Assembly: GCA_007694095.1 (NCBI GenBank)
Contig: RECI01000182.1
Span: 1-46,552 of the forward strand
DNA from: Balneolaceae bacterium
Lineage (GTDB): Bacteria; Bacteroidota; Rhodothermia; Balneolales; Balneolaceae
DNA: 46,552 bases
Direction of reading: 5' to 3'
The notes beneath the pieces are model-generated. The model did not search any database. It was not told the origin of the DNA and was given only the letters and a program-made list of their open reading frames with translations. Position 1 is the stretch's first letter, and each line of letters begins with the position of its first letter. Positions 15,217-17,532 of this stretch are shown here, piece by piece. Both the position numbers and the translations under genes were made by a program.

Positions 15217-15247
15217 TTGAAAGTTTCGTTTTTATATTCTACATTTG
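15217..15247 (+). promoter_or_regulatory. Bacteroidota-type promoter of the BlaI/M56 pair
   Basis: TTG (15217-15219) is followed after 20 nt by TACATTTG (15240-15247), an exact match to the -7 consensus TAnnTTTG of the Bacteroidota housekeeping sigma factor with normal spacing. The -7 box lies entirely within the first operator. Confidence 0.75.
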
Positions 15248-15251
15248 TAGA
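15238..15251. promoter_or_regulatory. BlaI-type operator 1
   Basis: TCTACATTTGTAGA is a perfect inverted repeat (arms TCTACA and TGTAGA, 2-nt centre) containing the TACA/TGTA half-sites recognised by BlaI/MecI-family repressors. It covers the -7 box, so binding would block RNA polymerase. Confidence 0.85.
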
Positions 15252-15257
15252 AAATGA

Positions 15258-15274: not shown

Positions 15275-15646
15275 ATGAAACTTTCAAAATCTGAAGAACA
15301 ATTAATGCAGTACATCTGGGAAAACGGCCAGGCTTTTATGAATGAATTGCTTGAAATGTATCCAGACCCTAAGCCCGCCAGTACAACAGTCGCTACTCTC
15401 TTAAAACGAATGACCGATAAAGGATATATCGGTTACAAGCAGCTTGGCCGTTCCCGCCGCTATTATCCGTTGGTTAAAAAGTCTGACTATTTTTCACGGC
15501 ACATCAACAACCTTATTCAAAAGTATTTTGACAATTCGCCGGCAAATTTCGCCTCATTTTTTACAACAGAAACCGATCTGACCGAAGAGCAGCTCAAAGA
15601 ACTTCAGCAGATTGTTGAACAGGAACTCAAAAGGAGACATCAATGA
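15275..15646 (+). CDS. BlaI/MecI/CopY-family transcriptional repressor
   Basis: This 123-residue winged-helix repressor has the N-terminal BlaI domain: LSKSEEQLMQYIWENG, then helix-turn-helix residues around PASTTVATLLKRMTDKGYI (about 34-52) and the wing QLGRSRRYYPL. The C-terminal dimerisation helices end in LKELQQIVEQELKRR. In the known BlaR1/BlaI and MecR1/MecI systems, the partner metallopeptidase triggers proteolysis of the repressor and so de-repression. Here the next gene encodes that type of partner, overlapping by 4 bp (ATGA). The two operators just upstream imply autoregulation. No beta-lactamase or PBP2a gene is nearby. Confidence 0.93.
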   Translation: MKLSKSEEQLMQYIWENGQAFMNELLEMYPDPKPASTTVATLLKRMTDKGYIGYKQLGRSRRYYPLVKKSDYFSRHINNLIQKYFDNSPANFASFFTTETDLTEEQLKELQQIVEQELKRRHQ

Positions 15647-17532
15647 TATCATACCTGATTTATTCCGCCATAAGTATGGGGATTTTAATACTCTTCTACT
15701 ATGCAATTCTGTTTAAAGAGAAGACATTTCATATAAACCGGGTTTTTCTGCTGTTCAGTTTGATTTTTTCTTTAATCATTCCGCTTATCCCTGTCGGGAT
15801 TTCAGGGCCTCAGATCACTTTTTTTCAAAATGATAAAACCGATGATATTCTGACATCAGATACGCCCTTTACCATTGTAACAGATGCTAACATGCCAGAA
15901 TTTGAGGAAAATCCGGTATATGAAAACGAAGAGAATTCAGCTTCCACATATGAACTTTTTATTCTGTTGCTAACAGGGTTTTATGCATCAGGAGTGTTAT
16001 TTCTTTTTATTCGCCTTCTACGGATTGAACACATGATCCAACTGAAAATCAGACGTAATCCAGGCATTTTGCATGAAGGTCATGAAGTTGTGCTATTAAA
16101 TGAGAATGTAGTACCCCATACTTTTCTCAATACGATCTTTGTAAGCAAAAAGCAGTATGTAAAAGGTGAAATTGACAACAGGGTATTTCTGCATGAACTT
16201 GCCCATGTAAAACAGAAGCATACAATAGATATTCTGTTTGTTGAGATTTTGAAAATATTTTATTGGTTCAATCCAGTCATTTATCTGTACAAAAAAGCTA
16301 TTCTTATAAACCATGAATTTTTGGCTGATGAGTCAGTCATCAGGGAAGGAATCAGCGTATCGGATTATCAGAAAATGATATTGAAAACCCTGCTGAACAG
16401 ACCATCTCACGCACTTGCGAGCAGCCTAACTTTCGGGCTTATCAAAAAAAGGTTTTTTATGATGACGCAATCCAACAACAAAACCCGGGCTATCATGAAA
16501 ATTGCATCATTAATACCGCTTTTTGTTGCACTCTCTCTGCTACTGGGATGTGAGTCTATTCCGGCTGATGGTGAGTCAACCTTCAAGGAATTAACCATTG
16601 AACTCACGAATTCTGAAATAATCAGATTGAATAGTGAAGAAATGGATATTTCCAACCTTGAAGAGAAGCTTGAAGAATACTCCCAGAAATACGACCTCCG
16701 TTTTGTGGTTAAAAACCATCCCGATACGAGATCGGAGTTGGTTTCAAAGTTGCACAGACTTATCCATGAATATGACACACAAGATAATATCAGTGAACAA
16801 TCTCAGTTGCAGATCTACATTAATAAAGAGAGTGAAATTATCGTGGATGGTGAAACTCATTCGCTTGACGAATTGAATGAAGTTCTTGCTGATCGAATGA
16901 AAGAAAGCTTAGAGATCATCAATTTTCGCGTGGATAGAAATGCAGAGTTTGGAACCATTACCGATGTTCAAAGACTACTTAGGATTCATGGAATACTGCG
17001 GATTATCTATTCTTCGGTAAGGGAAAGTAACGAAACCGGATCAATGCAGTACTCCGATCAGACACTGACCCTGCCGCCAGCACCGCCTTCTCCCGAAACA
17101 AGATTTGAGTCTTCAACTGAGGGTGCTCAGAACCGAACTGCTCCTGCGCCTCCGGTACTCACGGAATCAAAGAATCTGCTAACCATTCGCCTTAATGCTC
17201 AAGGCATGATGCTGGTAAATGATCAGCCGGAAAACGTTTCGGGAATAAAGTTGAGAGTGAAAGATTTTCTGGGAAATTATGGAGATGACCCAAATCTGTC
17301 TGTTAGCCCTCAAGAGGCTATTCTTGTCATCAGGCATGACAGACACCTTGCATACGAAAGCTATATCGAAATTCTGGATGAGATAATGTCCGCTTACAAT
17401 GAGCTTCGAAATGATTATGCTATGGAAAGATTTGGTGTATCGTACTCATCCATTAAAGAAGAGAGCGATCTATACCGCCAAATACAGAATGCGTACCCCA
17501 AACAAATCGCCATCGCAGAAACGGGTAATTAA
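15643..17532 (+). CDS. M56-family (BlaR1-type) metallopeptidase with three ExbD-like periplasmic modules
   Basis: This 629-residue membrane protein has the BlaR1/MecR1 topology: membrane helices at about 2-22, 33-53, 104-126 and 285-303, and a cytoplasmic zinc-peptidase site HELAH (184-188) with downstream NHEFLADE (223-230) as the third-ligand region. The periplasmic C-terminus is not a penicillin-binding domain. It holds three repeats resembling the periplasmic domain of ExbD: about 315-376, 387-458 (IYINKESEIIVDGETHSL, then INFRVDRNAEFGTITDV) and 511-620. The last contains SAYNELRNDYAMERFG and ends YPKQIAIAETGN, very like Bacteroidota ExbD C-termini (ending near YP, I-S-EAEP). A Pro-rich linker (478-505) separates repeats 2 and 3. 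A strong AAGGAG precedes the ATG, which overlaps the repressor stop. Confidence 0.9.
   Translation: MISYLIYSAISMGILILFYYAILFKEKTFHINRVFLLFSLIFSLIIPLIPVGISGPQITFFQNDKTDDILTSDTPFTIVTDANMPEFEENPVYENEENSASTYELFILLLTGFYASGVLFLFIRLLRIEHMIQLKIRRNPGILHEGHEVVLLNENVVPHTFLNTIFVSKKQYVKGEIDNRVFLHELAHVKQKHTIDILFVEILKIFYWFNPVIYLYKKAILINHEFLADESVIREGISVSDYQKMILKTLLNRPSHALASSLTFGLIKKRFFMMTQSNNKTRAIMKIASLIPLFVALSLLLGCESIPADGESTFKELTIELTNSEIIRLNSEEMDISNLEEKLEEYSQKYDLRFVVKNHPDTRSELVSKLHRLIHEYDTQDNISEQSQLQIYINKESEIIVDGETHSLDELNEVLADRMKESLEIINFRVDRNAEFGTITDVQRLLRIHGILRIIYSSVRESNETGSMQYSDQTLTLPPAPPSPETRFESSTEGAQNRTAPAPPVLTESKNLLTIRLNAQGMMLVNDQPENVSGIKLRVKDFLGNYGDDPNLSVSPQEAILVIRHDRHLAYESYIEILDEIMSAYNELRNDYAMERFGVSYSSIKEESDLYRQIQNAYPKQIAIAETGN

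Follow-up and report, generated by a model that had tools for sequence, protein, structure and literature searches.

A BlaR1-type protease of Balneolaceae carries a periplasmic tail derived from both ExbD subunits of the Ton motor

The staphylococcal BlaR1/BlaI and MecR1/MecI systems (MEROPS family M56) consist of a repressor and a membrane protease with a four-helix core, and act on a TACANNTGTA-type operator. Antibiotic sensing is the main known role of BlaR1-type proteases. For S. aureus, the BlaI cleavage site and the BlaR1 mechanism have been described and were used here as the reference for residue comparison; signal peptidase cuts BlaR1 directly after the last transmembrane helix, shedding the sensor (PMC9834060). 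ExbD, a subunit of the Ton motor, binds the TonB D-box through strand region 130–134 in E. coli (PMC10907165), and the glycan chains of peptidoglycan are bound by its periplasmic domain (PMC10771500).

The window analyzed here is a stretch of 46,552 nucleotides (contig RECI01000182.1) from a Balneolaceae bacterium. It encodes a repressor-protease pair of this kind, in which the protease, hereafter M56-ExbD, ends in ExbD-like modules. The pair and the residues of its core are located as follows.

15275–15646, + strand: blaI repressor, 123 aa (Pfam Penicillinase_R, 103 bits, above the curated cut-off)
15560–15562, + strand: codon of F96 in the FASFF motif of blaI, at the position where S. aureus BlaI is cleaved; motif present in 23/23 relatives
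15643–17532, + strand: M56-ExbD fusion protein, 629 aa (open reading frame, Pfam, alignment, AlphaFold, Foldseek)
15643–16551, + strand: BlaR1/M56 core (residues 1–303), crossing the membrane with four helices (alignment; Foldseek match to BlaR1 8exq, E 1.1e-6)
16192–16206, + strand: HELAH motif of the core
16309–16329, + strand: NHEFLAD motif of the core
16432–16434, + strand: F264, the aromatic residue of the autocleavage loop

The first 4 nt of the M56-ExbD reading frame overlap the 3' end of blaI, and the protein scores 55.5 bits against Peptidase_M56 (Pfam cut-off 31). As in BlaR1 and MecR1, the core combines HExxH with NHExxAD, an aromatic P1' residue in both the autocleavage loop and BlaI, and a candidate processing site after the fourth helix (TM4). 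Specifically, residues H184, E185, H188, N223, H224, E225, A228, and D229 are invariant in the alignment of 19 M56-ExbD proteins, giving the HExxH plus downstream Glu in a four-helix core that defines BlaR1/MecR1-type gluzincins, and the P1' position of BlaR1 autocleavage is Phe or Tyr in all 19. The second Phe of FASFF, a motif found in every one of the 23 BlaI sequences, aligns with the Phe at which S. aureus BlaI is cleaved (PMC9834060). Judged from these residues, the BlaR1 protease in M56-ExbD is intact. The adjoining BlaI/MecI-type repressor and its operator complete the likeness, and M56-ExbD belongs to the BlaR1/M56-BlaI kind. In all, the window genome contains three genes for BlaI and, for M56, four matches, this pair among them.

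Unlike BlaR1 and MecR1, M56-ExbD has in the sensor position an ExbD2-like and an ExbD1-like module and no penicillin-binding domain; in the Pfam, AlphaFold, and Foldseek results only ExbD matches were found past the core. No beta-lactamase or PBP target was seen, again unlike BlaR1 and MecR1, and the protein reaches 41.8 bits in the NCBIfam blaR1_generic model against a cut-off of 400. A literature search covering few subscription papers and no preprints returned no paper describing the ExbD-tailed form. Because both domains pass their Pfam cut-offs, the architecture may already stand uncommented in databases. The tail is divided as follows.

16579–16782, + strand: module 1, residues 313–380, an optional, degenerate ExbD2-type copy (in 5/19 relatives)
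16795–17025, + strand: module 2, residues 385–461, an ExbD2-derived periplasmic domain
17026–17163, + strand: low-complexity Pro-rich linker, residues 462–507 (PPAPPSPE; pLDDT under 50)
17164–17520, + strand: module 3, residues 508–626, a periplasmic domain derived from ExbD1, C-terminal tail included

ExbD (PF02472) matches M56-ExbD over three stretches with 59 bits and an E-value of 6.5e-16 (Pfam cut-off 25.4), and the same Pfam match occurs in all 19 aligned members. The window genome has its own exbB-exbD1-exbD2 cluster on contig C189, a further, separate exbD on contig C229, and several TonB_C proteins. In a whole-genome search, residues 498–627 align with its own ExbD1 at 49% identity over 128 residues (E 8e-34), and module 3 keeps the ExbD1-like ending YPK-I-I-AE. 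Module 2 is 40% identical to its own ExbD2 over 63 residues. Profile-profile comparison with hhalign separates the two modules by subgroup: module 3 matches ExbD1 with probability 100 (E 3.6e-55) and ExbD2 with 0.7, and module 2 matches ExbD2 with probability 98.6 (E 5e-16) and ExbD1 with 20. Module 1 matches module 2 with probability 96.9 (E 1e-10). Chance similarity to ExbD is ruled out by the E-values and the subgroup-specific matches; a generic ExbD or TolR origin is likewise ruled out, as the modules match ExbD1 and ExbD2, not the C229 ExbD.

The tail thus consists, as judged by these alignments, of the periplasmic parts of both Ton-motor exbD products, with module 1 as an additional copy of module 2 in degenerate form. 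It lacks the ExbD transmembrane helix with its proton-carrying Asp: TM4 (IMKIASLIPLFVALSLLLGC) contains no acidic residue, and the conserved Asp is present in the membrane helix of the genome's own ExbD1 (SSLADIAFLLLVFFL) and ExbD2 (SAMPDVVFMLLIFFM). Compared with the motor subunits, the modules share the periplasmic fold and the subgroup-specific sequence (module 3 with ExbD1, module 2 with ExbD2); unlike them, M56-ExbD has no transmembrane Asp helix and carries the domains of both subunits on one chain. The gene context also differs from that of ExbD and TolR, the neighbors being blaI, USP, and an AbgT transporter with no exbB or tolQ adjoining. A preliminary description of this DNA had proposed a BlaR1/MecR1 core with three ExbD-like modules, the third from a Bacteroidota-type ExbD; both proposals agree with the sequence, profile, and structure data. 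Its three-repeat tail holds for this protein and does not generalize: among the relatives the core tail is an ExbD2-like module, a Pro-rich linker, and an ExbD1-like module, into which module 1 is inserted in some. That the modules pair with two distinct subunits of the motor goes beyond that description.

The predicted structure agrees with this division. The AlphaFold model, built with 19 sequences, contains the M56 helices and three beta-beta-beta-alpha-beta-alpha(-beta) units. In a Foldseek search of the PDB, the full model returned S. aureus BlaR1 (8exq) first and after it the ExbD periplasmic domain, ExbD-TonB and ExbD-D-box complexes, and TolR. Modeled alone, modules 2 and 3 reach a pLDDT of about 90 over most of both and return ExbD with an E-value of 2e-5. 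Module 2 superimposes on ExbD 8p9r with a VIA Z of 11.4 and an r.m.s.d. of 2.0 Å over 73 residues, and it shares the periplasmic fold of TolR from Tol-Pal (5by4, VIA Z 11.0); unlike TolR, the modules belong by sequence to the ExbD1 and ExbD2 subgroups of the same bacterial family. The periplasmic ExbD/TolR fold is therefore found in the tail by Pfam and hhalign as well as by structure comparison. Absence of such similarity, which the preliminary description had named as refuting its reading, was checked for and is not what the data show. In the models the linker is disordered and the pTM is 0.41–0.47, and they fix neither the orientation of module 2 relative to module 3 nor the pairing of the two.

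The ExbD2-ExbD1 architecture occurs in a single open reading frame in at least 19 of 92 Balneolaceae genomes, the window genome counted. Some relatives have an ExbD2-like module only. Additionally, three copies (L022, L082, and L029 in genomes G011, G012, and G018) keep the ExbD2 module, whereas module 3 is absent or is preceded or interrupted by an in-frame stop; these genomes form one genus group with Fodinibius, their neighbor G010 being Fodinibius halophilus. A groove formed by two modules is therefore not always needed. The comparison set of 92 other M56 proteins was drawn from Bacteroidota and from those family genomes that lack the module pair; TonB_C is carried by 40 of them, MORN_2 by six, Amidase_3 by five, and a weaker ExbD match by four. 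This M56 group therefore repeatedly recruits Ton and cell-wall domains, and the ExbD2 plus ExbD1 pair is, among the genomes sampled, the Balneolaceae version of such recruitment. The M56-TonB_C proteins of Bacteroidota resemble M56-ExbD in having an M56 core, a Pro-rich linker, and a tail from the Ton system; in those the tail is the C-terminal domain of TonB, in M56-ExbD it is ExbD.

Several single proteins were noted in this comparison. Outside Balneolaceae, a Flavobacteriaceae M56 protein of 868 aa (L166:4959-7562) has an ExbD match at residues 575–653 (E 6e-6). Two proteins from Flavobacteriaceae or other Bacteroidota (L146:5391-7403 and L190:2444-4447) join a BlaR1-type protease with a periplasmic cell-wall amidase (Amidase_3, E 2e-47 and 7e-48). 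In the G054 copy (L065:2242-4308), the ExbD1 module is 69% identical to the real ExbD1 of the window genome, far above the other modules, possibly through fresh capture or gene conversion. A free tree places this module beside the own-genome ExbD1, but a single origin of module 3 is not rejected (AU p 0.38), and repeated capture was set aside.

Upstream of blaI, the following elements were predicted.

15217–15247, + strand: predicted Bacteroidota-type promoter, with TTG at 15217–15219, 20 nt, and TACATTTG at 15240–15247 inside the operator
15237–15252, + strand: predicted BlaI operator 1, perfect dyad TTCTACATTTGTAGAA
15257–15272, + strand: predicted BlaI operator 2 (ATCTAAACTTGTAGAA), 20 bp downstream and ending 2 bp short of the start codon of blaI

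The TACANNTGTA dyad lies just before blaI in 23/23 loci, mostly within a perfect TTCTACANNTGTAGAA, and is followed 20 bp downstream by a weaker second site. Bacteroidota promoters have the form TTG-N19-TAnnTTTG. A TTG stands 19–21 nt upstream of TACANNTG in all 23 relatives (background of TTG 2.4% per position), a spacing that fits this form; the operator overlaps the predicted promoter, so that bound BlaI would block transcription of its own gene.

The preliminary description had also spoken of a BlaI-controlled protease; a wider regulon under BlaI is not borne out by the operator scan. The window genome has one perfect operator copy and none with one mismatch, and sites with two mismatches number 23, operators included, against 20 in the reversed control; no operator-like site was found in the stretch scanned around exbB-exbD1-exbD2. 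Among the perfect copies listed for relatives, the site lies about 390–410 bp before the M56 start, that is, before blaI, with distances read by eye; the few copies that deviate are at contig edges or belong to partial matches. A wider regulon was rejected on these counts, for a scan that sees strong sites only, and weaker targets could exist. Since the strong operator sits only before blaI-M56-ExbD, the strong-site regulon is the operon itself, and the switch appears, from these predicted sites, to control its own operon only. Autoregulation as the only operator pattern would also be expected if the protease had targets other than BlaI, with BlaI setting its level and the modules bringing it to the Ton motor or to clients of that motor; we consider this very unlikely, as the BlaI Phe at the known cleavage position is kept in 23/23 relatives.

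Gene neighbors of blaI and M56-ExbD vary between genera, and across genera no conserved partner gene was found beside the operon beyond blaI and, in some relatives, tandem M56 genes. In four loci (L071:7102-8604, L074:7209-8657, L077:10451-11947, and L069:6980-8497) a further M56 gene with a different tail lies directly downstream of M56-ExbD. This tail ends WHPNGQLAWEF...GELIEKIK, and related M56 proteins match MORN_2 weakly. One BlaI operon may therefore encode several sensors.

The make-up of the tail suggests a built-in monitor of the Ton motor or the adjoining cell wall. We tentatively favor, with somewhat less than even confidence, an autoregulated sensor of the partners of ExbD, blaI and M56-ExbD forming a two-gene proteolytic switch. 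The ExbD2-like and ExbD1-like modules would pair as the motor ExbD dimer does, and the paired tail would capture partners of real ExbD, most likely the TonB D-box strand and/or a peptidoglycan glycan strand. A changed partner supply would shift the tail relative to the membrane and, as happens in BlaR1, free the active site of the protease; BlaI would then be cut at the conserved Phe, and expression of the operon would rise.

The Ton parts present in the window genome (exbB-exbD1-exbD2 and TonB_C proteins) count for the partner-sensing reading. In E. coli ExbD the strands that bind the D-box come last in the domain, and in modules 2 and 3 these strands are among the best-conserved parts: among the M56 modules, I454 is conserved at 95%, Y456 at 100%, and S457 at 89%, and in module 3, Y618 and P619 at 95% each and position 623 at 89%. 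This conservation may reflect fold rather than ligand, which counts against the reading, as do the relatives in which the ExbD1-like module is lacking or cut short. The preliminary description had named the TonB-ExbD state, peptidoglycan, and energy status as possible signals. The first two are plausible, because the D-box edge strands are conserved in the modules (PMC10907165) and ExbD binds peptidoglycan (PMC10771500), with TonB availability the favored signal and peptidoglycan second; energy status is a less likely direct signal, because the proton-carrying Asp is absent and TM4 of M56 replaces its helix. A sensor of peptidoglycan or cell-wall stress only, whose modules bind glycan strands with the Ton motor uninvolved, would draw on that same peptidoglycan binding, on the triggering of BlaR1-type systems by cell-wall drugs, and on the amidase domain of 5/92 other Bacteroidota M56 proteins. 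We hold it to be somewhat unlikely, for module 3 is ExbD1-specific throughout, its C-terminal tail included, and each of the two modules corresponds to a particular gene of the motor, not to TolR or a generic ExbD, which speaks for motor-specific contacts. The origin of the tail in both ExbD subunits names the TonB D-box, ExbD, and peptidoglycan as candidate ligands that are testable with purified domains, and if motor state is sensed, the protein would be a direct route from the inner-membrane Ton system to transcription.

The end of TM4 offers a possible processing site.

16501–16551, + strand: TM4, ending in the lipobox-like L-L-G-C303-E (C303 codon 16549–16551)

TM4 starts from a Lys-rich cytoplasmic side and ends, in all 19 M56-ExbD proteins, in [LIVMFTA]-x-[GA]-C followed by Asp or Glu, with Leu at –3 in most. 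This is the loose pattern of lipoprotein signal peptidase (SPII) substrates, though internal and not N-terminal. The same pattern occurs in 11 of 85 other M56 proteins, with the Cys inside the helix in eight and at the helix end in three. In E. coli, an acidic residue at +2, Asp above all, retains lipoproteins in the inner membrane. Of 20 ordinary lipoproteins chosen in the same loci by a simple rule, none has an acidic +2. Since the lipobox occupies the position where BlaR1 sheds its sensor, a lipoprotein-type shedding step, with SPII-type processing and lipidation at C303, is plausible; the pattern also fits an unprocessed Cys. The putative site is SPII-like, unlike the SPI-like site after TM4 of BlaR1. 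Within the favored partner-sensing switch, lipoprotein signal peptidase would cut at the lipobox and lipidate the tail, much as signal peptidase I acts on BlaR1, and the cut would either reset the sensor or free the ExbD tail as an inner-membrane lipoprotein. If used, the lipobox would be a new processing mode for a BlaR1-type sensor.

The tail might instead be an effector: perhaps set free as an inner-membrane lipoprotein, it would serve as a decoy, capturing TonB or pairing with real ExbD, and would damp the Ton motor. With the strong operator at blaI-M56-ExbD only and no conserved third gene except further M56 genes, the sole product of the switch would be more M56-ExbD; the tail, having no proton-carrying helix, would be able to bind and not to drive, and the acidic +2 follows the lipobox Cys in 19/19. 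Set against this, the tail of BlaR1-type proteins is as a rule a sensor, autoregulation alone is common, and use of the lipobox is putative, so we regard a decoy as quite unlikely. Equally improbable in our judgment is its more specific form, in which TM4 doubles as a lipoprotein signal peptide and the released, lipidated ExbD1/ExbD2 mimic titrates TonB or ExbD, braking the motor. Were this form true, the BlaR1-type system would be a feedback brake on the Ton motor, not a reporter to other genes.

In many Flavobacterium M56 proteins (A2 alignment, e.g., L126, L137, and L148), TM4 ends in LCTK-VAQ, a sequence resembling a signal peptidase I site that follows an internal signal helix.
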